A DNA stretch of 64,000 nucleotides from Tomocerus qinae (lineage: Eukaryota; Arthropoda; Collembola; Entomobryomorpha; Tomoceridae): the NCBI GenBank assembly GCA_020055645.1, contig CM034547.1:70962884-71026883 (forward strand). Direction: 5' to 3'. The position numbers and the translations under genes are program-made. Position 1 is the first letter of the stretch; the number at the start of each line of letters is the position of its first letter. Shown piece after piece: positions 6,931 to 50,714 of the stretch. The notes below the pieces were generated by a model. The model had not been told where the DNA came from and made no database searches. It saw only the letters and a list, made by a program, of their open reading frames with translations.

Positions 6931-7728
6931 CAAATGAGAAAAATCCAATTTTTGCCAATGAGAAAATCTAATTTACCAATGAGAAAATCTAATTTATGCT
7001 AATGAGAAAACCCAATTTTTTTCAATGAGAAAATCTAATTTTACCAATGAGAAAATCTAATTTGTGCCAATGAGAAATTCCAATTTTTGCGAATGAGAAA
7101 GTCTAATTTTACCAATGAGAAAATCTAAATTTTGAGAAAATCTAAATTTTGCAAATGAGAAAATCCAATTTTTGCCAATGAGAAAATCCAATTTTACCAA
7201 TGAGAAAATCTAATTTTACCAATGAGAAAATCTAATTTTACCAATGAGAAAATCTAATTTTACCAATGAGAAAATCTAATTTTACCAATGAGAAAATCTA
7301 ATTTTACCAATGAGAAAATCTAATTTTACCAATGAGAAAATCTAATTTTACCGATGAGAAAATCTAATTTTACCAATGAGAAAATCTAATTTTACCAATG
7401 AGAAAATCTAATTTTACCAATGAGAAAATCTAATTTTACCGATGAGAAAATCTAATTTTACCAATGAGAAAATCTAATTTTACCAATGAGAAAATCTAAT
7501 TTTACCAATGAGAAAATCTAATTTTACCAATGAGAAAATCTAATTTTACCAATGAGCAAATCTAATTTTACCAATGAGAAAATCTAATTTACGCCAATGA
7601 GAAAATCAAATTTTTGCCAATGAGAAAATCTAAATTTTGCAAATGAGAAAATCCAATTTTTGCCAATGAGAAAATCTAATTTTACCAATGAGAAAATCTA
7701 ATTTATGCCAATGAGAAAATCCAATTTT
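6931..7728. repeat. 22-bp minisatellite
   Basis: About 36 tandem units of 22 bases, core AGAAAATCTAATTTTACCAA. The centre (7190-7560) is almost homogeneous, while both edges hold variants (TTTTTGCCAA, TTTATGCCAA). The core shares GAAAATC-ATTT-CCAAT with the 27-bp array at 13739-16440, which suggests a common origin. Confidence 0.9.
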
Positions 7729-8440
7729 TGCAAATCTAAAAATCAATTTCAATTTTTGCAAATCTAAAAATCAATTTTAATTTTTGAAAATCTGAAAATC
7801 CATTCCAATTTTTGCAAATAAGAAAATCAATTACAATTTTTACAAGTTAGAAAATAAGTTTCAATTTTGGCAATAAAAAAGCCATTTAAAATTTTTGTAA
7901 ACACAAATATTTTAGAATATTTTAATTTTTATAAAAAGAATAAATCAATTTTTGCAAACAAGAGTATTTTAGAATATTTTAATTTTCATAAATAAGAATA
8001 TTTAAAATTTTTGCAAATAATAGTATTTTAGAATATTTTAATTTTTGAAAACAAGAGTATTTTAGAATATTTTAATTTTTGCAAACAAAAGTAATTTAGA
8101 ATATTTTAATTTCTGCAAACAAGAGTATTTTAGAATATTTCCATAAATAAGAATATTTCAATTTCCATAAATAAGAATATTTCAATTTTTGCAAATAGGA
8201 ATATTTAAATTTTTGCAAATAGGAATATTTAAATTTTTGCAAATAGGAATATTTCAATTTTTGCAAATAAAAATATTTTAATTTTCACAAATAAAAAAGC
8301 CATTTCAATTTTACCAAATAAGGATATCAATTTCTCTTGAAAAAATGAAAATCCATTTAAATTTTTGTTTAAAAATTTCATTTCGAATTTACCGAATAAA
8401 AATTCCATTTAATTTAAATTTTTTTCCATTAGAAAGTTCA
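7729..8440. repeat. Decayed minisatellite tail
   Basis: Continues the preceding array as irregular units of about 22-27 bases built from CAATTTTTGCAAATAAGAA, with many indels and TTTTAGAATATTTTAA variants. I read it as an older, decayed part of the same array family. Confidence 0.7.
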
Positions 8441-8453
8441 TTTCAATAATTGT

Positions 8454-9785
8454 TAAGTGGTGTGCAACACCGCTTTATAAGAATGAGTTGAGATTATCAA
8501 TTCAAACTTACTGTACGTACTGAAAAGCGAGGTCGAGTTCGAAAATGGACAAAATCGGACACACCCTGCCCGTGGGCGTGGTCAAAAAATTAAAACCTAC
8601 AGCAAGCCGTAACAGAAGCTCGCCTGATTAAAGGTTAACGTGTACACATTTTGGTAGACAAAAAGTACTCGCACGTAGCACAAAACCGAGCGTACGGATT
8701 TTGATTAAACTTTCAGAATTGGGTCTTTATATATGTAGCTATGACATATTAAAAATTCAGACATTGATATTTTAGGGAAACGAAGCTATATTATTTGAAA
8801 AATCAACAAAAAATCAAAATTGATTAATGTTGACCATAAAAATCAACAGAAAATCAAAATTGATTAATGTTGACCATAAAAATCAACAGAAAATCAAAAT
8901 TGATTAATGTTGACTATGAAAATCAACAGAAAATCAAAATTGATTAATGTTGACTATGAAAATCAACAGAAAATCAAAGTTAATTACTGTTGACTATGAA
9001 AATTAACAGAAAATCAAAATTGATTAATTGTGAATATGAAAATTAACAGAAAATCAATATTGATTAATTTTGAATATGAAAATTAACAGAAAATCAAAAT
9101 TGATTAATTTTGAATATGAAAATCAGCAGAAAATCAAAATTGATAAATGTTGACTATGAAAATCAACAGAAAATCAAAATTGATTAATATTGGCTATCAA
9201 AATCAATACAAATTAAAATATATTAATAACGACTATCAAGATCAATGCATAAGAAAATATATTAATATTGACTATCAAAGTCAATACATAATGAAAATAT
9301 ATTAATATTGACAATCAAAGTCAATACATAATGAAAATATATTAATATTGACTTTTAAAATCAAGACAAACTTGAAACAGATTCGTTATTTTACTTTTAA
9401 AGGTAATTTTCCGGTTTTGTTATTTTACTATATAATTTCAGTTTTAGTAGAAGCGGCATGATATAGTTTATACTATCCCGCTAACAATCTATAGGAAACG
9501 GTATTACAATTTTCAATGCCCATTTTTCACTTTAACTATCAAAATGAAGACAAAGTGAGCGCGCGGTATCTCAGCAACCTATGGACCGATTTACCCCAAA
9601 ATCAATAGGGATCGTCAGTGGTCTATAGGCATTGTTTTTGCCAAGTTTGGTCTATATCCGTCATTGCTTTCGAAAGTTATCGTGGGTACGGACGGACGGA
9701 CCGACGGACGGACGGACGGACGGACGGACGGACAGACTGTGCGGTTCTATAAGCTCGCTTACTCAGGCGAGCTAAAATTGGTGTA
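8454..9785. mobile_element. Helentron-like element with internal 40-bp array, copy 1
   Basis: The segment begins with AAGTGGTGTGCAACAC, which is also a terminal motif of the element at 23105-23697. It then holds the module CTACAGCAAGCCGTAACAG followed by AGCTCGCCTGA (8603-8640), a 40-bp tandem array, a roughly 370-base 3' block (GTGAGCGCGCGGTATCTCAG near 9560, a CGGA microsatellite at 9690-9735) and a terminal hairpin AGCTCGC-TTACTCA-GGCGAGCT near 9760. The 5' AGCTCGCCTGA is complementary to the 3' hairpin arm. Subterminal inverted repeat, 3' hairpin and internal tandem array together match the known layout of non-autonomous Helentrons (HINE/DINE-like). A terminal-inverted-repeat DNA transposon is the alternative. 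No protein is encoded. Confidence 0.5.
8796..9365. repeat. 40-bp minisatellite inside the element
   Basis: About 14 tandem units of 40 bases, core AACAGAAAATCAAAATTGAT, degrading towards the right edge. Arrays with the same 40-bp unit occur in each 999-bp repeat at 11190-11455 and 12190-12450, so the array travels with the element family. Confidence 0.9.
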
Positions 9786-10260
9786 ACTTTAGTTATCGGC
9801 ATTGTAGAACGTCATGAGATAGCTCGTTCGAAAAGGTTATCTGTTATGCCATGTAAAGTTTAAGTCACACTGTCACACGTGACAAAAGGTCAAAAGGTAA
9901 ATGAAAAAGTTCACTAAAAACGTCGATAACTCAAAAACGGTTTGGGATAATTAACTCAAACTTACTATGCGTAATGTAGGGATGAAAAGCAAGGTAGAGT
10001 TTGAAAATGAAATAAATCGGACACATCCCCTGTCTGTGGGTGTGGTCCAAAAATTAAACCTACAGCAAGCCATAACAGAAGCTCGCCTGAAAAAAGGGGA
10101 CAGTGCCCACTAGAATAATTGAAATTGGTTTATTTTGATAATTATTGATTAACATGGATTATCAAAATAGATGAATGTTGACCATCAAAAAAACTAAAAA
10201 CCTACAGCAAGCCGTAACAGAAGCTCGCCTGATCAAAGGGGACCGTGTACACATTTTTGA
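9786..10260. mobile_element. Broken copies of the same element family
   Basis: Contains the module GGTGTAACTTTAGTTATCGG and GAACGTCATGAGATAGCTCG (also at 13190 and 35870), then two copies of the 5' module CTACAGCAAGCC-TAACAGAAGCTCGCCTGA at about 10067 and 10198. No 3' hairpin belongs to these copies. They look like truncated or nested pieces of the neighbouring element. Confidence 0.5.
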
Positions 10261-10550
10261 TATTAATAATTATGGACTCTTTATGTATTATTTGTTAAGC
10301 CTAGTATTTAGTTGCTTGAAGTAACTGCCTAATTTTTATTGTAGCAATGTATATTCAAATAAAACGTGATAAATAAAATTGGACATATAAAGAAGTAAAT
10401 CAGTAAAGAAGTTTACTTTTATGGTCAAATTTGCTATCGATCGCCCCCACTGATGGGGAAAATTACATAAATTTTGTGAAAATTATCTACATTATCAACA
10501 TTATCAACTTTATCAACATTATCAATTATCAACATCAACATTATCAACAT
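10261..10550. other. Spacer with ATTATCAAC microsatellite
   Basis: A short spacer between repeat blocks. A loose ACATTATCA/ATCAAC simple repeat lies at 10490-10550. There is no gene. Confidence 0.6.
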
Positions 10551-13185
10551 CTAAATTTTCAATTTAATCTTTCGTACCCTCGTTTTTCGACAGCTGGAAG
10601 CAGTTTTAACAAACAAAAAATCGCATTATTGTTCTTACTATTGAAAAAAGTCTAATTTAGAAACACTCAAATGTTTTTATTACCATTTTTAATTTCCACT
10701 AACAGGATCAGTTTTAAGTAGAAACGTTTATTGCGACTATAAAATTACCTATTAAAAGCAAGCAGAATAAAATGGACAATTTGTAGGTTGAATATGTTAA
10801 CCAATAATTTGGCAATTAATACTATATTAATCCAAGTTATATAAGAGCAGAAATTCATGTTTGACAAGCATACAGATTTATTTTGGTCTGTGTTTTACAA
10901 CTATTACAAATATTTCAACAAGTTTTCAATAAAAGCGGCATTATGGCAGTCAACAGTAACACCGAAGATTAAATAACATATTTTTCCGGCTGTTATTTGC
11001 GAACCGTTAGACATATTTTGTCAACAATCAATAGGGATCGTCACAAGCCCATAGACAACGTTTTTGCCAAGTTTGGTCAAATTTCGTCAATTCCTTCGAG
11101 AGTTATCGTGGGGACAAACTTGGTGTAGTTTCATCGCGCGGACGGACAGACTGTGCGATTCTATATAGCTCGTCAGGCGAGCTAAAAATCAAAGTAGATA
11201 AACGTTGATTATGAAAATCGACAGAAAATAAAAAAATTAATGTTGACTATCAAAATCAACAGAAAACTAAAATTAATTAATGCTGACTATCAAAATCAAC
11301 AGTAAATCAAAATTGATTAATGTTAACTTTCAAAATTAACAGAAATTCAAAATTGATTAATGTTGACTATCAAAATCAACAGAAAATCAAAATTGATTAA
11401 TGTTGACTATCAAAATCAACAGAAAATCAAAATTGATTAATGTTGACTATCAAAATTCCTTATTGAGGCGAGCTAAAACGCCTGTGTTCAATAATGGATT
11501 AATATTGTCTACCAAATGAAATCGTCATGCTTTGTTAAACAAAAGTACATCTAATTTTCAATTTAATCTTTTGTACCCTCGTTTTTCGACAGCTGGAAGC
11601 AGTTTTAACAAACAAAAAATCGCAATATTATTCTTACTATTGAAAAAAGTCTAATTTAGAAACACTCAAATGTTTTTATTACCATTTTTAATTTCCACTA
11701 ACAGGATCAGTTTTAAGTAGGAACGTTTATTGCGACTATAAAATTACCTATTAAAATCAAGCAGAATAAAATGGACAATTTGTAGGTTGAATATGTTAAC
11801 CAATAATTTGACAATTAATACTCTATTAATACTTGTTATTTAAGAGCAGAAATTCATGTTTGACAAGCATACAGATTTATTTTGGTCTGTTTTTTACAAC
11901 CATTACAAATATTTCAACAAGTTTTCAATAAAAGCGGCATTATGGCAGTCAACAGTAACACCGAAGATTAAATAACATATTTTTCCGGCTGTTATTTGCG
12001 AACCGTTAGACATATTTTGTCAACAATCAATAGGGATCGTCACAAGCCCATAGACAACGTTTTTGCCAAGTTTGGTCAAATTTCGTCAATTCCTTCGAGA
12101 GTTATCGTGGGGACAAACTTGGTGTAGTTTCATCGCGCGGACGGACAGACTGTGCGATTCTATATAGCTCGTCAGGCGAGCTAAAAATCAAAGTAGATAA
12201 ACGTTGATTATGAAAATCGACAGAAAATAAAAAAATTAATGTTGACTATCAAAATCAACAGAAAACTAAAATTAATTAATGCTGACTATCAAAATCAACA
12301 GTAAATCAAAATTGATTAATGTTAACTTTCAAAATTAACAGAAATTCAAAATTGATTAATGTTGACTATCAAAATCAACAGAAAATCAAAATTGATTAAT
12401 GTTGACTATCAAAATCAACAGAAAATCAAAATTGATTAATGTTGACTATCAAAATTCCTTATTGAGGCGAGCTAAAACGCCTGTGTACAATAATGGATTA
12501 ATATTGTCTACCAAATGAAATCGTCATGCTTTGTTAAACAAAAGTACATCTAATTTTCAATTTAATCTTTTGTACCCTCGTTTTTCGACAGCTGGAAGCA
12601 GTTTTAACAAACAAAAAATCGCAATATTATTCTTACTATTGAAAAAAGTCTAATTTAGAAACACTCAAATGTTTTTATTACCATTTTTAATTTCCACTAA
12701 CAGGATCAGTTTTAAGTAGGAACGTTTATTGCGACTATAAAATTACCTATTAAAATCAAGCAGAATAAAATGGACAATTTGTAAGTTGAATATGTTAACC
12801 AATAATTTGACAATTAATACTCTATTAATACTTGTTATTTAAGAGCAGAAATTCATGTTTGACAAGCATACAGATTTATTTTGGTCTGTTTTTTACAACC
12901 ATTACAAATATTTCAACAAGTTTTCAATAAAAGTGGCATTATGGCATTCAACAGTAACACCGATGATTAAATAACATATTTTTTCGGCTGTTAGTTACGA
13001 ACCGTTAGACATATTTGGTCAACAATCAATAGGGATCGTTACAAGCCCATAGACGACGTTTTTGCCAAGTTTGGTCAAATTCCGTTTATCCCTTCGAGAG
13101 TTATCGTGGGGACAAACCTGGTGTAGTTTCATCGCGCGGACGGACAGACTGTGCGATTCTATATAGCTCGTCAGGCGAGCTAAAA
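10551..13185. repeat. 999-bp unit in tandem, about 2.6 copies
   Basis: The word GTACCCTCGTTTTTCGACAG starts at 10574, 11573 and 12572, exactly 999 bases apart. Copies 1 and 2 are complete and copy 3 stops after about 630 bases at the GGCGAGCT hairpin. Each full unit holds about 580 bases of single-copy-like DNA, a CGCGCGGACGGACAGACTGT block, the hairpin AGCTCG-TCAGG-CGAGCT, and six to seven 40-bp units. Copies 2 and 3 are nearly identical over the first roughly 380 bases and then diverge, whereas copies 1 and 2 match best in their second half. This is tandem amplification of the 3' part of the Helentron-like family. Confidence 0.9.
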
Positions 13186-13738
13186 ATTGGTGTAACTTTA
13201 GTTATTGATATTGCAGAACGTCATGAGATAGCTCGTTCGAAAAGTTTATTCGTTAGGCAATGTCAAGGTCAAGTCACACGTTTCAAAAGGTCATTGAAAA
13301 AATTCATTAAAAACGTCATGTAACGTCAGATAATCAGTTCAAACTTTTTATGCAATTTCACACCACTTTTTTACATCCATTTGGATATGGTTTATTTCAA
13401 TTAAGAAAAGCTGGATCGGAGGAAAATCATGCATATTAATACGTCACCATAGTTGTTAATATCTTTAAATTATTGTTTGATTTATTTCAATAAGTACTAG
13501 CCTAATCATTTCTAAAATAGTCAGTTGTCATCTTTTACCGTTCGGATCGCCCGTAACTTTTCTCTCTGTCTCGGAAAGCAGAGGAAGAGTAGAAGAAAAA
13601 GTTAAAATTGTATGAAAATTAATGTTAAATAAACTAGTTTTAAGTGTTAAAACCAGTTGTTCTTTTTTCGTGCATAATTTGGTAGTTTGAAGCTACATCC
13701 GAGTTAGCTTTACACACTAACTAGCATCGTGTCAACCA
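13186..13738. other. Element module remnant and spacer
   Basis: 13186-13370 repeats the module seen at 9779-9960 (GGTGTAACTTTAGTTAT, GAACGTCATGAGATAGCTCG) and ends with CACACCACTT, the inverted form of the AAGTGGTGTG terminal motif at 8454. The remainder to 13738 shows no gene or repeat. Confidence 0.5.
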
Positions 13739-16440
13739 AAAGCCATTTCAATTATTGCAATTAAGATATTAAGAAAAGCCATTTTAATTTGCTGCAATTT
13801 TGAAAAGTCATTTCAATTTATGCAAATTAAGTAAATCCATTCCAATTTTTGCAAATAAGGAAATCTATTTAAACTTTTGCAAATGAAATAATCCATTTCA
13901 ATTTTGTAAATTAGAAAATCAAGTACAACTTTTGCCAATGAGAAAATCCATTCAATTTTGCAAATTAGAAAATCAAGTACAATTTTTGACAATAAGAAAA
14001 TCCATTTCAATTTTTCGAATAAGAAAATCCATTTTAATTTTTCCAATAAGAAAATCCATTTCAATTTTTCCAATAAGAAAATCCATTTCAATTTTGCCAA
14101 TAAGAAAATCCATTTTAATTTTTCCAATAAGAAAATTCATTTCAATTTTGCCAATAAAAAACCCATTTCAATTTTGTCAATAAGAAAATCCATTTTAATT
14201 TTTCCAATAAGAAAATTCATTACAATTTTGCCAATAAAAAATCCATTTCAATTTTGCCAATAATAAAATCCATTTCAATTTTGCCAATAAGAAAATCCAT
14301 TTCAATTTTGCCAATAAGAAAATCCATTTAAATTTTGCCAATAAGAAAATCCATTTCAATTTTGCCAATAAAAAAATCCATTTCAACTTTGCCAATAATA
14401 AAATCCATTTCAATTTTGCCAATAAGAAAATCCATTTAAATTTTGCCAATAAGAAAATCCATTTCAATTTTGCCAATAAAAAAATCCATTTCAATTTTGC
14501 CAATAATAAAATCCATTTCAATTTTGCCAATAAGAAAATCCTTTTAAATTTTGCCAATAAGAAAATCCTTTTAAATTTTGCCAATAAGAAAATCCATTTC
14601 AATTTTGCCAATAAGAAAATCCATTTCAATTTTGCCAATAAGAAAATCCATTTAAATTTTGCCAATAAGAAAATCCATTTCAATTTTGCCAATAATAAAA
14701 TCCATTTCAATTTTGCCAATAAGAAAATCCATTTTAATTTTTCCAATAAGAAAATTCATTTCAATTTTGCCAATAAAAAATCCATTTCAATTTTGCCAAT
14801 AATAAAATCCATTTCAATTTTGCCAATAAGAAAATCCATTTCAATTTTGCCAATAAGAAAATCCATTTCAATTTTGCCAATAAAAAAATCCATTTCAATT
14901 TTGCCAATAATAAAATCCATTTCAATTTTGCCAATAAGAAAATCCTTTTAAATTTTGCCAATAAGAAAATCCATTTAAATTTTGCCAATAAGAAAATCCT
15001 TTTAAATTTTGCCAATAAGAAAATCCATTTCAATTTTGCCAATAAGAAAATCCATTTAAATTTTGCCAATAAGAAAATCCATTTAAATTTTGCCAATAAG
15101 AAAATCCTTTTAAATTTTGCCAATAAGAAAATCCATTTCAATTTTGCCAATAAGAAAATCCATTTCAATTTTGCCAATAAGAAAATCCATTTAAATTTTG
15201 CCAATAAGAAAATCCATTTCAATTTTGCCAATAATAAAATCCATTTCAATTTTGCCAATAAGAAAATCCATTTAAATTTTGCCAATAAGAAAATCCATTT
15301 AAATTTTGCCAATAAGAAAATCCTTTTAAATTTTTCCAATAAGAAAATTCATTTCAATTTTGCCAATAAAAAATCCATTTCAATTTTGCCAATAATAAAA
15401 TCCATTTCAATTTTGCCAATAAGAAAATCCATTTTAATTTTTCCAATAAGAAAATTCATTTCAATTTTGCCAATAAAAAATCCATTTCAATTTTGCCAAT
15501 AATAAAATCCATTTCAATTTTGCCAATAAGAAAATCCATTTAAATTTTGCCAATAAGAAAATCCATTTAAATTTTGCCAATAAGAAAATCCAATTCAATT
15601 TTGCCAATAAAAAAATCCATTTTAATTTTGCCAATAATAAAATCCATTTCAATTTTGCCAATAAGAAAATCCTTTTAAATTTTGCCAATAAGAAAATCCA
15701 TTTAAATTTTGCCAATAAGAAAATCCTTTTAAATTTTGCCAATAAGAAAATCCATTTCAATTTTGCCAATAAGAAAATCCATTTAAATTTTGCCAATAAG
15801 AAAATCCATTTAAATTTTGCCAATAAGAAAATCCTTTTAAATTTTGCCAATAAGAAAATCCATTTCAATTTTGCCAATAAGAAAATCCATTTCAATTTTG
15901 CCAATAAGAAAATCCATTTAAATTTTGCCAATAATAAAATCCATTTCAATTTTGCCAATAAGAAAATCCATTTAAATTTTGCCAATAATAAAATCCATTT
16001 CAATTTTGCCAATAATAAAATCCATTTAAATTTTGCCAATAAGAAAATCTATTTAAATTTTGCCAATAATAAAATCCATTTCAATTTTGCCAATAAGAAA
16101 ATCCATTTCAATTTTGCCAATAAGAAAATCCATTTAAATTTTGCCAATAATAAAATCCATTTCAATTTTGCCAATAAGAAAATCCATTTAAATTTTGCCA
16201 ATAATAAAATCCATTTCAATTTTGCCAATAATAAAATCCATTTAAATTTTGCCAATAAGAAAATCTATTTAAATTTTGCCAATAATAAAATCCATTTCAA
16301 TTTTGCCAATAAGAAAATCCATTTAAATTTTGCCAATAAGAAAATCTATTTAAATTTTGCTAATAAGAAAATCCATTTAAATTTTGCCAATAAGAAAATC
16401 CATTTTAATTTTAGTCATAAGAAATTAATGGCAATTAGAA
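13739..16440. repeat. 27-bp minisatellite, about 2.7 kb
   Basis: Nearly 100 tandem units of 27 bases, core AAGAAAATCCATTTCAATTT plus TGCCAAT. Frequent variants are AAATTT for CAATTT, TAATAAAATCC for AAGAAAATCC, and CCTTTT for CCATTT. These recur in blocks, which indicates higher-order duplication. Because 27 is divisible by three and the unit lacks stops in one minus-strand frame, it yields several minus-strand open frames of 68-192 residues with the nonapeptide KLKWIFLLA repeated. I treat these as a by-product, since they have no start context, no splice sites and no non-repeat coding sequence. Confidence 0.95.
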
Positions 16441-17038
16441 AATAAAACCAATTTCCAACTATTGCAGATAAGAAAAGAAAATCCATTCCAAAATATCAAA
16501 TGAGAAAATGATTGTTAAATTTGGGAGCTGGCAAAGAATTTTCACAGCCGAGTGAATGGTCCCTCTGTCGACTTGGACTGCATCTTCAATCGCGTTGAGA
16601 GTATTTGTAGCAGGTAGGACTGTGAGAGGATGAAGCAAGACGTGCACGATGTAATTGGTGTGGTAATACGCTGAAAGACAAAAGAATGGACGTTTTTGTG
16701 GACGACGGAATGGCCAAAATGATGGAGAGAGAGTCTTGGCGAAGCCTCCCTCCCTCCCCCTGCAGCCCAAACATAGAATCCTTCTTCCTAATCATTGGGA
16801 TTACTCAAGATAAGTGAATGTCGTCACTCAACAGGTGCCTTTCCAATAAACCCGTCCCCAAATCTTGTTTCTTTAAAGTAAATACTACTAAATACGAACG
16901 AGCAGTGTATGTGAAGGAGCAACTACGATGACGGATGACAACTACACAAATCTATAAAATCACAGGGTTGTAATTGTACAAACATATTACTATTATATCA
17001 CATTTGGGATATAATTTTACCATCACAGAGATAAACCT
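16441..17038. other. Spacer, no supported gene
   Basis: Moderately GC-richer DNA at 16560-16780 with overlapping open frames on the minus strand (16459-16770, 16586-16795). None has a domain I recognise. The sequence ACCATCACAGAG at about 17021 also occurs at about 20 in the window. Confidence 0.4.
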
Positions 17039-18118
17039 ACAGCAAGCCGTAACAGAAGCTCGCCTGAGTAGGGGACCATGTGTACATTTTTGGTAGAATA
17101 ATAGTCCAAATATATTAAATAAAATATGATTATCTAAATTAATTTAAATTCAAAATAGCTTAATGTTAATTATCAATATCGAAAGAAGTTAAAAATCCAC
17201 AAAAATTCAAAGTAGAATAATATTTACCATTAAATTCAAAGTAGAATAGTATTTACCATTAAATTCAAAGTAGAATAGTATTTACCATTAAATTCAAAGT
17301 AGAATAGTATTTACCATTAAATTCAAAGTAGAATAGTATTTACCATTAAATTCAAAGTAGAATAGTATTTACCATTAAATTCAAAGTAGAATAGTATTTA
17401 CCATTAAATTCAAAGTAGAATAGTATTTACCATTAAATTCAAAGTAGAATAGTATTTACCATTAAATTCAAAGTAGAATAGTATTTACCATTAAATTCAA
17501 AGTAGAATAGTATTTACCATTAAATTCAAAATAGATCCATATGAACTAGTAAAACTAACAATAATTCAAAACAGATTAATTTTAAATATATTAAGAATAT
17601 CAAAATCAACAAAAAATCTAAATTGATTAATGTCGACTATCAAAATCAACAGGTAAACAAAATTTATTGATATTGATTATCAAAATCAAAAGGAATTCAA
17701 AAAATGTAAATTTGACTAGAATATGTACTAATTAAAATTAGATTTATTTCTGTCATCTAATAGTTAGTTTCCTGATTTTATTTGCTTTGTTACAAACTCA
17801 CAATTTTGGTAGAAACGGAGTGAAATACTTTACACAATACTATTAACAATTTATGGGAAACGCAATTGAACTTTTAATATCCATTGTATGCCAAATTTTC
17901 CATTTGACTATCAAAATGATGACAAAGTGAGCGCGCGGTATCTCAGCAACCTATTGACCGATTTGAACCAAAATGAATAGGGTTCGTCATTGGTCCATAG
18001 GCATTGTTTTTGCCAAGTTTGGTCAACTTCCGTCATTGTGCTCAAAAGTTATCGTGTTAACGGACGGACGTACGGACAGACTGTGCGGTTCTATAAGCTG
18101 CCTTATTCAGGCGAGCTA
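17039..18118. mobile_element. Helentron-like element with 29-bp array, most complete copy
   Basis: Starts with CTACAGCAAGCCGTAACAG and AGCTCGCCTGAGTAGGGG. A 29-bp minisatellite follows, then a 40-bp-unit remnant (17595-17690), then the 3' block (GTGAGCGCGCGGTATCTCAG at 17928, TGCCAAGTTTGGTCAACTTC), CGGACGGACGTACGGACAGA, and the end CTTATTCAGGCGAGCTAAAA. The 5' AGCTCGCCTGA and the 3' TCAGGCGAGCT are 11-bp inverted repeats. The copy is about 1.08 kb, with no coding frame. Compared with the copy at 8454-9785, the flanking modules are conserved while the internal tandem repeat differs. Confidence 0.6.
17214..17531. repeat. 29-bp minisatellite, 11 near-identical units
   Basis: Eleven units of 29 bases, core AATTCAAAGTAGAATAGTAT plus TTACCATTA, almost without differences except in the first unit and the last boundary. 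This homogeneity implies very recent expansion compared with the decayed 40-bp remnants beside it. Confidence 0.95.
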
Positions 18119-20420: not shown

Positions 20421-20820
20421 TCAACAGTTCGAGAGAATCAAAATCGGTCAATATTATTAATGAAAATCAATAGAAATTGGAATAATGCAAGTTTGACTAT
20501 AAAATTGAATATAAATGCGAAATAGATTTATTTCCGTCCTCTTATAGTTACTTCTGGTTTTATTTGCTTTTACCTACTATAAAATCTTAAATTCGGTAGA
20601 AGCGGAGTGAAATATTTTATACTATCACGCTAACAATTTATAGGAAACGCAATTGAGAAGTTTGCAGTAAGAAGGGCGTTTTCATTTTATTGAATTTGAA
20701 TTCCTTGACAACCTAGTTGTTGAAATAAATGGGGCTCAAATATGGGACCCGAAATCTGCCTGAGCGGTAACAGTACAAATAGCCGTTTATCAACAAAATT
20801 TTGAAAAATAGAAATTTTGT

Positions 20821-20993
20821 CCCTTAGACCCTAGTTAAAATGTCACTTTCTTTTCACTTCCTCCTGAAAAGAGGACTATTCAGTTACTGGTTTTGTCTAA
20901 AACTCCAAATTACCTCACCTGGGGCAACGCGCTTGCTTTATTATGCATCATCAGGAAGTGAAAAGGAAATGACACTTTATCTGGGGTCTTAAG
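20821..20993. mobile_element. 173-bp MITE (TTTCACTTCCTCCTGA arms), copy 1
   Basis: Inverted arms of about 45 bases: CCTTAGACCC...TGTCACTTTC...TTTTCACTTCCTCCTGA on the left and its inverted counterpart ending GGGGTCTTAAGG on the right. A direct second copy is at 22430-22604 inside the same 2.1-kb element, sharing the middle CACCTGGGGCAACG. Confidence 0.7.
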
Positions 20994-20994
20994 G

Positions 20995-21161
20995 CCACTT
21001 TAGACTCATCCTGTTCCTATCATCATCATGTTTGGCGATGGCGACTTCAAAATGACGTCATGTCTCATTGGAAACAATTTTTAGTAGATTTAAAATCAAC
21101 TGATATGACGTCACAAATCGTGATGATGATAGGAATAGGAAGAATATAAGTAGCACTTTAG
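20995..21161. mobile_element. MITE with paired TGACGTCA sites
   Basis: The arms TGTTCCTATCATCATCAT and ATGATGATAGGAATAGGA are inverted copies. Each side also holds a TGACGTCA palindrome (about 21053 and 21106). It lies immediately beside the previous MITE inside the 2.1-kb element. Confidence 0.65.
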
Positions 21162-22429
21162 TCATCTAACACTACTGAAATAGATCAAAAAATTTCAACA
21201 AATGTAATAAAAAAATTTAACTTTTTATTCCAATACTACGTCCCGAAGAGTGTTGTCCTCTCATTGAATAGAAATAAGGAGGATTTATATTTCTCAATGG
21301 TATTGAAACATTCCTATACAGTTTACGAGGTTGTCTTTTAGCATAGGGCTTATGAGTATTTATCCATCTGATAGTTCGAGTGTCGTGAAATTTTGACATT
21401 CCACGATATTTTCAAATTCAGCGCAACCCAATCATTTTCGCGATAATACAGCTTAAATTTCATTTTTACCAAATTTATACCAAATTTAGTGTTTTTAGCT
21501 ATTCGAATGCGGTGATTTGGTTATAGCGGTTTACTTTACTACTCGAGCGTTTTGGTAGCGCCAAAGAAGCGCAAACATTTCAGATTTTGGATTATTTGAA
21601 TTCCATTGTTTCTGATAAATGCTGAACTTAAAAGTGACATACTGTTGGCACACAGCATTGAAAAAGTAGCAAAAATTTAAATTCCGCTGACAGCGCATTT
21701 AAATACGCAAAGTTGTTTTCAAACATTTGCGCTACCTTAATTCGCTACAGCGAATAATAAATTTACCCTAAATTGAATATTTTATCTTAAATAAGAGCAA
21801 CCAATGAATTTGCGTTTTTGCAGCGCGCAAATGGTAAAGTTAACCACACTTTGAGCATTTTATCTGAAATTCATAAAGCATTCAAATAATCCAAAATCTG
21901 ATATTTAGTCTATTTAGTCGTTTGCGCTGTCGTTGAAGGCAAATGATAGCTTACAAAATTTTACTGCACTAGCTGACAATGACATGAAAGTTTTATTCGG
22001 TTTAAAAATTAATATTCCAAATAGATATACCTAGATACATATATTATGTTAGAAAAGGAATTTCGTGTATTTGGCGAGAATAGAATCCTCCTAAGTGAGC
22101 TAAGAAAAATGTTTGCTTTCCGGGACTGTTTTCCCGGTTACGACACTTTTCCTGAGAAATCTATTTTTCCGGGGTTTTATCTACACTAAGTTGGTTATTT
22201 TCCCAAAAAAAGTTCCTTCCCGGAATTCCTGTGGAGCTGACTAATGCACTTATTTTTAATAAAACACACCCATCTCCACTCTTGAGAGTGTAAGGTCTTA
22301 TTGAGGAACCCTTCACTCTCAAAAAACTGTGTTAAAAATTCCTGAGAGTGGGAGTCGAGGCACTAAAAATATGGGTTTAAGATTAATCCGACCAATGTTA
22401 ACTACTGAAAACGTTGAGTTGAGGCTCGA

Positions 22430-22604
22430 ACTTTCTATAAACCTGACGAGGGGATTCACTTCCTCCTGAAATACGGATAATTCAGTTACTTATTCTGCCT
22501 AAAATTTCAAATCACCTCACCTGGGGCAACGGCAATGTTTTATTTATGAATGTTCCTTTGCGCGTGAAGTAAAAGGTAAGTGACACTCTAAACCTAGCTT
22601 AAGG
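22430..22604. mobile_element. 173-bp MITE family, copy 2
   Basis: A direct relative of 20821-20993: TTCACTTCCTCCTGAAATAC, CTCACCTGGGGCAACGGCAA, and a right arm with GTGACACTCTAAACCTAGCT. It is more diverged at the left arm. Confidence 0.6.
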
Positions 22605-23104
22605 TATGTTTTGTATAGCAACGTTGCGTTAGTTAGTATGATATTCTAGGGTTGAGAATGATTACCCTGGTATCGGATGTCGGGTCCATTATGACATTGA
22701 TTTTTTCCCAAATTTCATTTATTTGTTATTTTTTTCAGTTTCCAATTTTAAAACGCCCTTCTTACCGCAAACTTCCGAATTGAACTTTTTAATGCCCATT
22801 TTTCACTTTGACTATCAAAATGAAGACAAAGTGAGCGCGCGGTATCTCAGCAACCAATAGACCGATTAGCCCCAAAATCAATAGGGATCGTCAGTGGTCC
22901 ATAGGCATTGTTTTTACCAAGTTTGGTCAAGATCCGTCATTGCTTTCGAAAGTTATCGTGGGGACGGACGGACGTACGGACAGACTGTGCGATTCTATAA
23001 GCTGCCTTATTCAGGCGAGCTAAAAGTCATTCAAAGTTTTGAAATGAAATGCTGTGTTCTGATTTATTATTTATTATAATAAACCATGTACAAATGGGTG
23101 TAAT

Positions 23105-42974: not shown

Positions 42975-43730
42975 CTACCCACAAAAAAATACATTAGGGA
43001 TATTCACTTTAAAGATTATAATTTTATTAATATTTTATTTTAATATAATATTTTGCAACCATACAGGAATTTCTTTATTGGCGACACTAGCGGCTGTCTT
43101 TGGACTAGAAGCTGATTATAAACAAAATTTTATAACATTGTTGGCAATAATAGTTAGCAGAGAGAGATAGAGATAGAGTTTACATAGTGTTTTATTATAG
43201 CCGGCTTTTTTACATTTTAGCCAGCCAGTAGAGTAGGCCATTTTATTCGACTAAATTGGCTGGTGGCTAAAATGGCCATATCTTAATTTACATTGACCTT
43301 AGCTGTTAGCCAGACTAAAATTGACTATAGCCAAATTAATACCAATTTAGCCACTAGCAGTGCTCGAAGACCAGCCGGCCGGCAGGTTGAAATTCTTTTT
43401 AGCCAGTGACTAAAATGGCCAAAAATAGTCAAATGGGGCTATGTCGCCACTAGCACTAGCCGGTGAGTCAAATACTGAGAGCTGATCAAGGTTCAGTTTT
43501 ACTGTAATTTTTCATATTGCGTCATTTAAGTCCAGACTAGTCCCTAGACGGCCAAAAGATTTCGCCAATAAAAATATTCGTCTATTTAATGTTTTTCTAT
43601 TGTGTTTTAAAAATAGGTTGTAGGAAATAAGTACAGACCGGACATGTTCAAAAGTCATAGGACATTTTTTCCCAAAAACCAAAATTTTATTTTTAACGAT
43701 CTTTGCCTAATTTCAAAATTTTCTCAATAC
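42975..43730 (-). other. Intron 2 of the PDZ gene
   Basis: 756 bases, GT at 43730-43729 and AG at 42976-42975, splitting the PDZ domain after the SEG that precedes DEILS. It contains a TAGCC-type hAT-like MITE (43193-43470). Confidence 0.85.
43193..43470. mobile_element. TAGCC-type hAT-like MITE, copy 3, intronic
   Basis: From AGTGTTTTATTATAGCCGGC to GGTGAGTCAAATACT, matching the reverse complement of 2783-3148. It lies wholly within intron 2 of the PDZ gene. No clear 8-bp duplication remains. Confidence 0.6.
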
Positions 43731-45290
43731 CTTCTGAAAGAGCTCCGTCTTCAGCGGCTTGTCCATTGGGGAATATTCTTTTGACGAAGATGCCCATTTT
43801 CCCTTTGGGAGAGTCAGTTCCGCCGACGACGGAGAATCCGAGGCTTTTTCTCTGGGGACCTTTTTGGTAGACAACGGTGAAAATGGAGAGGGACACGGAT
43901 TTACTTTTGAGGGGAATGAATTCCCGCTTTCGGATATTTTCTCTTTCTTTGCGGGACTCGTTGTCTCGGAAGGGACTCGTGTCTCGGTAACTAGAAATTC
44001 GGACGCTGTCATTTTTGATCCCACAGACATGGCGGAAGGGCGGTCGGGTATCTTTGTTTTTATTATCCGCCGTGCTGAGAGCTCCTTTAATGTTACGAAT
44101 CCACTCGACTTGGGAGGGAGACAACAAAGATGGGATGGTGATCCGGTTGATTGTCTCTGTCGAAGAATTGATTCTGCGGGCTGTCGGGTGTTTCGGGGAG
44201 TCGAAGGGGGAATTGGAATTTTCGCTGGTAGTTGTACTAGAGTTGCTACTGAATCCTTCGGGTTTGAAAGAAATTTGAATCTCGGGAGGACCCAGGTTGA
44301 CCAAGGACACGGGGGAGCCCTTTTCGATTAATTGTTTACTGTCTCGGGCGCAATCAATCCAATTCCTGGAAACCGGAGAGCCATTTTCAATTAGCTGTTT
44401 AGTTTCTGGGGGGTAATCACTCCAATTCCTGGCCGAGTCGCTGTCGTAGCCACTTTCATCCCGCCCACCCGCACTAGAGTCTTTACCCTCAGCCCACTTC
44501 CGCCCCCACAGCGGAATTGATGTATTGCTTTGGTCAAGTAGTTCTAGGCGGACTCTGCCCAGACTGTCGGGAACCAATTCCTTCCGCACAAGACCCACCG
44601 ACAAATCCCCCAGGCTATGGTACAACTCCTTGTGCTGTATTCGAGACTCCAACCCCCGTTTGGTCCCCGCTTTCAAGTCCTCCGACGTCTCTTCTGACAG
44701 AGCCGACAGTTTCGACCGGATGTATTTGTGGGGGAAGGAGGATTTTCTGCTGCTGCTCCCCCAGATGCTGTTGCAACTCCCCAGGGACAGGTTTTCGCAA
44801 CTCGTCGTCCTTAGACCGTTTTCACACAGCCTAGATAAGTGGCCGACACCCGAATCCCCCGATTCGATAATGTTGTCCGTATCCGTCTCTTCCGATCCGA
44901 CATACAACTCACTCTCGTCTTCAGAAGATGTCGGATGAACTTTACTTTTTGGACCGTTTCCTTTCGCCATGTACATTCGGTTCGGTTTCGTCAGGAATTT
45001 TCGCAAAGACTCAACCCGACTCAATTTTCTCTTCTCTGGAGTCGACTGTTTGCTACTTGGACTTTCGGGTATCATCTCTGGGGAATCGGAGTCTTCAGCT
45101 ACAATCACATCGTCGGTGGATGACTCCAGATTCAACCGAGATCTCAACTCGATCGTCGTTTTATTCCCTTCGACACTCCCCACTGTTCCCACACAAACCG
45201 AATTTTTCTTCGGGTTAATAACTTCTGCTTCTGAATTTCGGATCGACTCCCACGTCCGCCCGAGTTTCTTCCCCCAAGTTGACATCCGAC
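43731..45290 (-). CDS. PDZ-domain scaffold protein (IL16/PDZD2-like), exon 2
   Basis: The main coding exon of a 672-residue protein (residues about 81-601). The acceptor CTCTTGGAAG precedes GTCGGATG, and the donor GTATTGAG follows at 43730. The frame continues from exon 1 and into exon 3. It opens with [16 protein letters not shown], then has acidic and Ser-rich low-complexity sequence with no membrane segment or signal peptide. It ends in the first half of a PDZ domain (from residue about 549: [40 protein letters not shown]), whose SLGF is the ligand carboxylate-binding loop. PDZ domains bind C-terminal peptides of membrane or signalling proteins, so a cytoplasmic or submembrane scaffold role is likely. 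The closest style I recognise is the IL16/PDZD2 group. Orthology is not certain. The exon is clearly GC-richer than its surroundings, as expected of coding DNA. Confidence 0.9.
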
Positions 45291-45363
45291 CTTCCAAGAG
45301 CAAAAAAATTTAAATCAATACTGACATCCCCATAAGAACTATATGTTACAATAATGTAAGGTT

Positions 45364-47989: not shown

Positions 47990-49605
47990 TTTGTTGTTTT
48001 ATTGTACACATTTTATTTCTACCTTTTTTGCATAGATATTTACATTACTATTTTCAGAAAATAAATAAATGCATAAATAATTACACACTTCATCATAATA
48101 GGAGAGAATGATGATGCTAATTCAGTTTCCTTTAATTGCTCACTTAGCAGATAATGTTTAAGTTTACTCTTAAAAAGTTTCAACGTGTTACAATCTAAAC
48201 CAATAATGTAATCTGGAATACTAAACCAGTAGCTATATGCTTGTTCCGTAAAACTACTCTTTCCAAAAGTATTTTGACTAGTATTAAGGTTAGTTTTACA
48301 TATGTTGTAGATCTTGTATTAATAGTGTTAGATGAATCAAATGTTAGATAGTTCTTAAAGTACGGTGGACATTCATTATTCACTATACTAAAAATTAGTT
48401 TTAAAAGTTCAAATCTATACAAGGATACTGGAAACAGCCATATTAATTTATATATTATTTGTTCTTTGACATTATCATATTTGCTTGCCATGAGTACAAA
48501 CTTTCCTGCTAGCCTTATGGCTCGTTCAATAATTTTCAAGTTTTCCTTACGTGTCGTACCTCAGATTATTGACATATAGGCAATTATTGGCTGTATGTAT
48601 GCATTCATAATAAGTAGCCTATGATGTTCAGTCATTAGGTATCTATACGGAAATAAGGATATTATTATGGAATTACGTTTAGTACGCATATTTGTTATCT
48701 GGATACCCCACTTTAACTCTAAATCAATACACAATCCTATTATTTTCATACTTTTAGATGGCGTTATTACATCATTGCCAATATTTATACAGAAATTTTT
48801 TAGTGATTCTACAACATTAGGTCTACCCAATAACATCATTGTAGTTTTGTCACTGTTAATTTCCATATGATTGGTTTCCATCCACTGCATAACATTATTT
48901 AAGTCTTCCTCTATGTGTTTTTTAATATTATCATCGTATTGTCATCGGCAAATAAGAACATTGGTGTTTTTTTATATAAAGGTTATTTATCATAATAGAA
49001 AATAAAAATGGTTCTAGTATTGATCCCTGTGGGATTGAAAGATGTTCTTTGTGTCTGAGAAATTTGTGTTAGATACAAGCGTAAAGATTGCCCTTTCTGC
49101 CAGGTATGCTTTTAACCGAAGAGTATCGATACCGTACCAGCCTAACTTACTCAAAAGCACTTAGCAATTTGTCCGGTCAAAAGCTTTGGCCATATCTAGT
49201 GCCAATACTATGCAAACATTTCCAGTAGATATTTGTTTAAAAATATGGTCTGTAATGGCTACCTGTGCATGTTGAGTTGAATGGTTTTTCCTAAATCCAT
49301 ATTGTCTAACATGTAGTATATTATTAACATTTACGTGGTCAACTAATTGAGCTAGTATACATTTTTCTATAATTTTTGATAGGAAACATTGTATCGATAT
49401 TGGACAAAAGTGAACAGGTAGTGACGGGTTATCTACTTTAGGGCTAGGAATAATTTTTGACACCTTAAGTACTTTCGGTAGATCCTCTGTTACAATACTA
49501 GCAATAATTAGACAATAAATGTAAATATTTATCACAGGATTACTCATAAGTATATTAAAATACTTAGGACATAATGACATTGCGTCTAGTGAGCCTACTT
49601 ACAAA
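47990..49605 (-). mobile_element. 5'-truncated LINE (Jockey/CR1-type), RT region
   Basis: Minus strand. It starts abruptly near 49600 within the reverse transcriptase (KVLKVSKIIPSPK, FCPISIQCFLSKIIEKC, YGFRKNHSTQHAQ, LALDMAKAFDRTN). It continues with a PQGSILEPFLFS motif near 49030, the catalytic FADD at 48941-48952, NHMEINSDKTTMMLLG near 48870, and the C-terminal FGKSSFTEQAYSYWFSIPDY near 48240. The 3' UTR carries AATAAA signals near 48005. The endonuclease and ORF1 are absent. The reading frame changes at least four times (for instance between 49165 and 48990, and near 48285) and has in-frame stops, so it is dead. Truncation at the 5' end is the usual outcome of target-primed reverse transcription. 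Confidence 0.9.
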
Positions 49606-50316: not shown

Positions 50317-50714
50317 TCATACAAATATTAATTAACGTGGTCCAGAAGCATTTATATTTGTAAATAGATTTTTACATTTAATTACTGTCTTTCGCTGCCC
50401 TGATCCTACCACACCTACATACATAGCCACTAAATAACATGGGAATCAGGTACAAATATAATAAAAGTGTTATTTAAAGGGACACATACGCGTAGCTATG
50501 ACGCTTTTGACTATTCATACAAATATTAATTAACGTGGTCCAGAAGCATTTATATTTGTAAATAGATTTTTACATTTAATTACTGTCTTTCGCTGCCCTG
50601 ATCCTACCACACCTACATACATAGCCACTAAATAACATGGGAATCAGGTACAAATATAATAAAAGTGTTATTTAAAGGGACACATACGCGTAGCTATGAC
50701 GCTTTTGACTATCA
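50317..50714. repeat. 198-bp perfect tandem duplication
   Basis: Two adjacent copies (offset 198 bases) beginning TCATACAAATATTAATTAAC and ending GACGCTTTTGACTAT appear identical base for base. This is a very recent duplication, or an assembly artefact. Confidence 0.9.

Follow-up and report, generated by a model that had tools for sequence, protein, structure and literature searches.

Helentron derivatives that carry tandem repeats are known from oysters and flies, and the Helentrons themselves are named for an AP-type endonuclease. Rolling-circle elements of this kind have a recurrent architecture: in the parts of the published description available to us, the DINE-1/HINE layout comprises a left flank with a subTIR, an inverted repeat (IR) and a microsatellite, then central repeats, and then a right flank with a subTIR and a palindrome (PMC4067079). 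The same layout is given for the oyster Cg_HINE in the available parts of that report, where HINEs with a central tandem array, as well as related HINEs that differ in their repeats, have already been published (PMC7492417). Here we analyzed a 64,000-nucleotide stretch of the springtail Tomocerus qinae (C2:70962884-71026883, hereafter the window) by searching it and the 334-Mb assembly (334.44 Mb, 115 contigs). The element at 17034-18118 of the window is short, lacks genes and is related to a rolling-circle transposon, and we hold with high confidence that it is a HINE, i.e. a non-autonomous Helentron, which derived by internal deletion from the resident Helentrons of ~10.7-10.9 kb and was presumably mobilized in trans.

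A first-pass annotation, made from the letters of the window, had proposed a Helentron-like family with variable arrays that repeatedly seeds new satellites, and had called for checks on a consistent terminus, T-run insertion, array variability and an autonomous Rep-helicase partner. Its Helentron-like character, subterminal repeats, consistent ends, T-run insertion, Rep-helicase partners and variable arrays are all retained below, but its orientation, its independent minisatellites and its satellite seeding are not. Two conserved modules, an end block (LF) and another module (RF), were BLASTed against the window and 60 loci, and were found to share a strand, with LF preceding RF; the 60 loci were the best-scoring ones (30 of 40 scored matches plus 30 of 41) and are biased to query-like copies. 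The BLAST confirmed that the four regions named earlier all share the conserved block and that three also have the second module, while their extents were partly redrawn (Table 1). Namely, the element placed at 17039-18118 is real but reaches from 17034 to 18118 and contains both arrays (29 bp × 11.5 and 40 bp × 2.6), its exact boundary bases being inferred from the T counts at empty sites; the region 10551-13185 is a family member but only part of one complex copy, 10057-13182, with two 3′-ends; and 20425-23022 does contain the conserved block but is a truncated copy lacking the second module, inside which a separate TIR transposon lies at ~20657-22775. This transposon has the ends GAAGTTTGC...GCAAACTTC and is flanked by GCAATTGA and CGAATTGA, which may represent a target duplication of 6 to 8 bp.

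Table 1. Positions of HINE copies and their parts in the window, and loci with 29-bp arrays
Feature	Position	Strand	Details and basis
HINE copy C, full	17034..18118	-	TAGCTC...TAGGTT on minus strand, T-run flanks; LF/RF pairing, aligned termini
Copy C 5′ subTIR AGCTCGCCTGA, true 5′-end	18107..18117	-	Octamer count, aligned ends, subTIR comparison
Copy C inverted-repeat partner of 5′ subTIR (5′ hairpin)	18096..18102	-	DNA folding, three sequence versions
Copy C 5′-flank GTCY microsatellite (ACGG on +)	18060..18081	-	Direct reading; same place in Helentrons
Copy C 40-bp minisatellite remnant, 2.6 units	17598..17702	-	TRF
Copy C 29-bp minisatellite, 11.5 units at 99%	17203..17535	-	TRF; unit comparison
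Copy C 3′ subTIR, TCAGGCGAGCT on minus strand	17057..17067	-	subTIR comparison
Copy C 3′ palindrome TACGGC-TT-GCTGTA near 3′ terminus	17038..17051	-	59 aligned ends
HINE copy A, full, 14.2 × 40-bp array	8594..9774	-	LF/RF pairing; alignment to Helentron
HINE copy B, complex	10057..13182	-	Three 5′-ends in 1000-bp tandem duplication (10547-13187); two 3′-ends (10057, 10199)
Truncated HINE copy D, interior part without 3′-end	20425..20656	-	Direct reading; no RF match there
Truncated HINE copy D, 5′-end, separated from the rest by TIR transposon	22776..23022	-	BLAST of modules
Seven 29-bp-array loci	window, L003/L033, L004/L034, L009/L035, L032, L038, L002/L040		

Pairing of LF with RF yielded 35 full copies with lengths of 416-1205 bp, no two of which have both the same ends and the same length, since such copies, e.g. 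near-identical loci on different contigs, were merged. Genome-wide, the palindromic 3′-end gave 2111 matches with ≤1 mismatch (1027 + 1084), a tally of 3′-ends and not of full copies, and the reversed-pattern control gave 0. Within the window, the octamer AGCTCGCC occurs 12 times versus 0.30 expected, a count that 0 of 100 shuffles reached.

The sense strand of the element is the minus strand, for which the decisive point is that the Rep ORFs read LF → RF; the 5′ and 3′ names of the first-pass annotation are therefore swapped, its '3′ hairpin' being the true 5′-end and its '5′ module' the true 3′-end. Read on the minus strand, the 5′-end is organized as TTTT-AGCTCGCCTGA-(spacer)-inverted repeat, after which come GTCY repeats, and the 3′-end as TCAGGCGAGCT-TCTGT-TACGGCTTGCTGTA-GG-TTT. 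Each terminus was consistent when aligned (68 and 59 ends): among 68 distinct 5′-ends, one row cut by a locus edge having been left out, 60 start exactly with TAGCTCGCC and 59 of those 60 are preceded by T; among 59 aligned 3′-ends, the three positions past TAGG are T in 58, 59 and 59, and the sequence varies further out. The complementarity between the two ends, which had been pointed out before, was borne out as an 11-bp subTIR match that is perfect in 28 of the 35 full copies, with 1-4 mismatches in the remaining 7. By DNA folding, the 5′ hairpin is stable versus shuffles in three sequence versions (z of -3.80, -2.72 and -2.79). The 3′ palindrome TACGGCTTGCTGTA is conserved across the 59 aligned ends and is not more stable than shuffles (z of -0.57 and -1.32), the predicted fold pairing the subTIR arm with the palindrome.

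Two inverted 11-bp subTIRs near the ends would also be expected of a MITE with terminal inverted repeats and a DDE transposase, the AGCTCGCC motifs then being the TIRs. Against this, the aligned ends place the motif near-terminally only at the 5′ side and ~20 bp inside at the 3′ side, no non-T target duplication appears at the empty sites read, and the same two ends bound Rep/Pif1 elements (see below), so that a MITE is hardly conceivable here and the rolling-circle reading is kept.

The target was read from empty sites, for which 9 of 33 joined flank pairs were searched against the genome and 40 of 726 candidates were scored, other joints perhaps having been crowded out; a local search was swamped by matches to the 40-bp array. 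Among 41 listed empty-site matches, 38 spanned the joint of L010 and 2 that of L009, and one was partial. At L010, the two empty relatives read have T5 and the filled site has T5+T3; at L037, two insertions lie within the same repeat, each showing the other's empty site, and fit three element Ts; at L015, the insertion lies within a tandem repeat and the empty site again fits three element Ts; at L009, the two empty relatives are unlike one another, and the T count fits approximately. The T-run insertion thus rests on four clean empty-site comparisons (L010, L037 twice and L015) and an approximate one (L009). The element carries three Ts and makes no duplication beyond possibly T, a target duplication of Ts alone being indistinguishable from none within T-runs.

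These same comparisons bear on whether transposition spread the shared ends, or whether minisatellite loci were instead multiplied by segmental duplication and gene conversion. A local head-to-tail duplication is indeed real, i.e. the 1000-bp one at 10547-13187, which comprises the HINE 5′ part plus array with 98.2% identity over 1642 bp; some 3′-ends on C1 are regularly spaced, at ~2.05 kb and 1.88 kb among the matches listed; and one 5′ flank is common to L007 and L008. Yet the flanks past the T-run differ for most of the listed ends and empty sites exist, and we consider spreading by duplication very improbable relative to transposition of a HINE. In copy B, every unit of the duplication has a second, truncated 5′-end ahead of the array. 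Head-to-tail copies in which RF adjoins LF were found at L004, L006, L011, L032, L040 and L047 (L014 is the same junction as L011), which would suit rolling-circle read-through or repeated T-run insertion. Another arrangement occurs at L028:2250-2350, where two HINE 3′-ends face each other with a palindromic TTTACCATCACAGTGGTAAA spacer between them; the 3′ flank of copy C (17013-17033) resembles this spacer.

The autonomous Rep-helicase partners called for by the first-pass annotation were found, and they share the ends of the short copies. PF14214 gave 96 matches genome-wide, to be counted as matches and not as distinct elements, which fall into a strong-scoring group A and a weaker group B; group B also includes fragments, some weak rows being fragments of group A genes. 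An E-value below 1e-30 marks 41 of them as group A Rep; 36 of these 41 lie on C1, a contig that makes up 42% of the assembly, as do 35 of the remaining 55. No 3′-end among the first 100 of the 2111 places listed, all of them mismatch-free, had a Rep match closer than 10 kb on C1 below ~28 Mb. Since Rep genes of group A are numerous and often open, the element could be taken for a canonical Helitron, with TC...CTRR ends and an A|T target, that belongs with them; but the subTIR (≤1 mismatch) was absent within ~1.5 kb of all 20 group A loci examined, and the termini are TAGCTC...TAGGTT in T-runs instead of the expected TC...CTRR at A|T, which leaves a canonical Helitron with next to no probability.

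It is with group B that the element shares its ends. In the first group B locus (C2:45.18 Mb), a 2096-aa ORF lies between the 5′-end and the 3′-end, the whole spanning ~10.7 kb; the same 5′-end was present in all five further group B genes of which the 5′ side was examined (6/6 in total, with the locus of one, L088, starting inside the subTIR); and the 3′-end was also present in both Helentron genes traced downstream, the second of which (C1:89.5 Mb) is a 10916-bp element. The encoded protein matches Helitron_like_N (PF14214, 1e-25) and PIF1 (PF05970, 3e-26), and likewise does the second protein examined. In the C1:89.5 Mb element, Rep, helicase and C48 domains occur in one 1614-aa open frame, with two upstream ORFs in, or ahead of, other frames (frames as read, unjoined). 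The putative endonuclease segment of the Helentron protein gave no Pfam or PDB match; its translation contains the candidate endonuclease motifs HNIQSL, CESW, GDFN and SHHKPI, C-terminal to Rep/helicase, which we take to be the right place for an AP-type endonuclease. At the Helentron C-terminus, a Peptidase_C48 (Ulp1-type) domain was matched at 7.9e-11 over profile positions 1-206 of 217 (C1:89512600-89513164, L092:1-564; and L081). The frame of the C2:45.18 Mb element stops within the C48-like region.

The full-length elements also indicate how the short ones came about. Copy A aligns over its own residues 1-891 (79.6%) and 1001-1182 (86.9%) with the C1:89.5 Mb Helentron, with ~9.8 kb of the Helentron absent between them, and on this alignment copy A is an internal-deletion derivative of the 10.9-kb Helentron type. 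Its 5′-end shows 91.3% identity over 346 bp to the C1:104.5 Mb Helentron. For the 5′-end of copy C, the best of the six Helentrons examined (C1:89.5 Mb) reached only 82.7% identity over 364 bp, and for this reason its own parent may be outside these six; matches of copy B to all six were limited to 160-168 bp at 70-73%. Given these differences in 5′-end identity among copies A, B and C, the window copies probably go back to several Helentron lineages rather than a single one. By the rules of PMC4067079, as worded in the parts available, an identical 11-bp subTIR defines a family and >80% identity over the last 60 bp a subfamily; the subTIR is identical to that of the C1:89.5 Mb Helentron, and the identity with its 3′ terminus is 92% over 75 bp, which places the element in the family and the subfamily of that Helentron.

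Array type and unit number differ among the 35 copies, as had been anticipated. By TRF, an array with a 40-bp period is present in 23 of the 35, with 1.9 to 14.7 units; in other copies the period is short or takes values such as 37, 81 or 120, and no array is present in four (L041, L054, L056 and L057). The 40-mer itself was detected in sense orientation in 29 copies, in one of these in both orientations, and was undetected in 6. One copy (L010, C1:85.73 Mb) has a long palindromic stretch partly in place of the 40-bp region, perhaps captured or inserted. Between the 5′-end and the gene, the six Helentrons hold 4, 12, 18, 12, 1 and 2 units of 40 bp when ≤10 substitutions and small indels are allowed, the fifth count coming from 430 bases only; without indels the numbers are 3, 11, 17, 10, 1 and 2 (≤10 substitutions) or 1, 9, 11, 10, 1 and 1 (≤8 substitutions). 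Twenty shuffles per sequence gave none at ≤10 substitutions, and for one Helentron of the six 4 units were counted on the opposite strand; some Helentrons have few units, i.e. 1-3 at C2:45.18 and C2:15.08 Mb at ≤8 or 10 substitutions. The 40-bp minisatellite was thus inherited from full-length Helentron parents.

Nine of the 35 copies carry the 29-bp unit between the same flanks, as 11, 4 and 3 units and, in six copies, as one unit; no match to it with ≤7 mismatches was obtained in L092 or in the 5′ regions of the six Helentrons. Compared alone with the 40-bp unit it is only suggestively similar (26 of 2000 shuffles as good). The 123-bp context of a single 29-mer, by comparison, is colinear with a run of 40-bp units once an 11-bp gap is opened where the 29-bp stretch begins on its left and more gaps are placed behind that stretch; the alignment score of 91.5 was equaled by 0 of 1000 shuffles (mean 43.9, maximum 70.5), and the opposite strand scored 25. 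The 40-bp unit holds two TTGATTTT motifs that are 29 bp apart (11 bp across units). Judged by this alignment, the 29-bp unit is a 40-bp unit that lost 11 bp and then multiplied in situ, from a single unit up to 11. The 'different minisatellites' of the first-pass annotation are accordingly not independent, since the 123-bp context aligns with the 40-bp units and these are already in the autonomous elements. More tentatively, and with somewhat more doubt than belief, we propose that the Helentron lineage with a C-terminal Ulp1-type (C48) protease and its derivatives form a graded series of minisatellite birth, in which the 40-bp unit loses 11 bp and re-expands to 1, 3, 4 and 11 units between unchanged flanks.

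The array variation between copies had suggested a larger role, namely that the element repeatedly captures or creates unrelated satellites, which spread as free arrays and build most of the window. Such a role would find a parallel in the oyster, in that Cg_HINEs have unrelated central repeats between similar flanks in the available parts of PMC7492417, and the 40-bp dimer has 2279 matches genome-wide, which are candidates for free arrays. The 40-bp and 29-bp units, however, are one lineage by the above alignment. Dimers of the 29-bp unit (≤3 mismatches) gave 25 matches genome-wide at 7 loci (Table 1), all copies of the Helentron/HINE family, and no 29-bp array independent of the element was among them. 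The elements hold 1679 of the 10990 tandem-repeat bases of the window, as counted from a merged list of TRF rows, and LF and RF are absent at the edges of its large 27-bp (13770-16424), 31-bp and 50-bp arrays, none of which is abutted by a 5′- or 3′-end. The seeding of satellites is therefore unlikely, and the HINE is one contributor to the window and not its explanation.

Other features of the window were recorded as well. Its 27-bp, 22-bp and 24-bp units bear no strong resemblance to the 40-bp unit, with 41, 53 and 334 of 500 shuffles as good. Two AT-rich minisatellite blocks (6933-8327 and 13770-16424) flank the HINE cluster and have related units (27-bp versus 24-bp: 2 of 500 shuffles as similar), as if a single array had been split by the cluster. 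A 198-bp two-copy tandem repeat with 100% identity at 50317-50712 is either very recent or an assembly effect. On the minus strand, open frames at 48195-49598 resemble decayed pieces of a non-LTR retrotransposon, the RVT_1 match being limited to 49161-49598, and a 538-aa open frame at 43693-45309 with a PDZ domain (1.1e-05) is probably a host exon.

The ends, the target, the parents, the deletion structure and the array ancestry are shown by the comparisons above. For the mechanism, we infer from what is known of Helitrons and from the available parts of PMC4067079 that the HINE would be mobilized in trans by the Helentron Rep/helicase. The Rep/Pif1-helicase would recognize the hairpin of the 5′ subTIR as well as the subTIR and palindrome of the 3′-end, and nick within the flanking T-run, and a single-stranded or circular copy would then insert between Ts. 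The 40-bp array was supplied by the parent's 5′ region and grows or shrinks, presumably via replication slippage or unequal exchange; in one branch, a unit short of 11 bp has re-expanded as a homogeneous 29-bp array, and the paired TTGATTTT motifs would ease both the 11-bp loss and the 29-bp duplication. Beyond setting right how the element is oriented and the notion that most of the window was built by it, the analysis has made partners, deletion and stepwise unit expansion between fixed flanks all visible within one genome, and the family is therefore usable for measuring how a minisatellite starts and grows inside a transposon.

Among the described systems, as presented in the parts of each source available to us, the HINE/DINE-1 elements of mites, mosquitoes and Drosophila (Thomas et al. 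2014, PMC4067079) share with the springtail element subTIRs of at least 11 bp, the 5′ inverted repeat, the short microsatellite, at the sequence level the palindrome near the 3′-end, a T-rich target without duplication, and termini common with Rep/helicase elements. Unlike them, the springtail element has a central 40-bp and a derived 29-bp minisatellite, its 3′ palindrome is weak by folding energy, and its partner's putative endonuclease gave no profile match. Helentrons with OTU and VTD ubiquitin-type cysteine proteases likewise combine Rep/helicase with an added cysteine protease (PMC9741609, in the parts available), whereas the T. qinae domain is a C-terminal Peptidase_C48 (Ulp1 family). 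Ulp1/C48 domains have been published for Ginger1, Mutator and Crypton elements (PMC2836005, PMC3212892 and PMC13317346, likewise in part), and no link between a C48/Ulp1 protease and a Helentron was found in the accessible portions of the literature searched, which does not show it to be unreported; the C-terminal C48 protease on a Helentron is thus possibly a new side result. The Cg_HINE of the Pacific oyster (PMC7492417) shares, in the available parts of that source, the left flank with subTIR and IR, a GTCY-type microsatellite in several oyster elements, a central array in fixed orientation, the right flank with subTIR and, at the sequence level, palindrome, the T-rich target and an array type that varies among relatives. 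Its most abundant clusters have units of 140-180 bp, versus 40 and 29 bp in T. qinae; and whereas autonomous partners could not be linked in the oyster study, the T. qinae elements have known partners, to which their array can be followed back.
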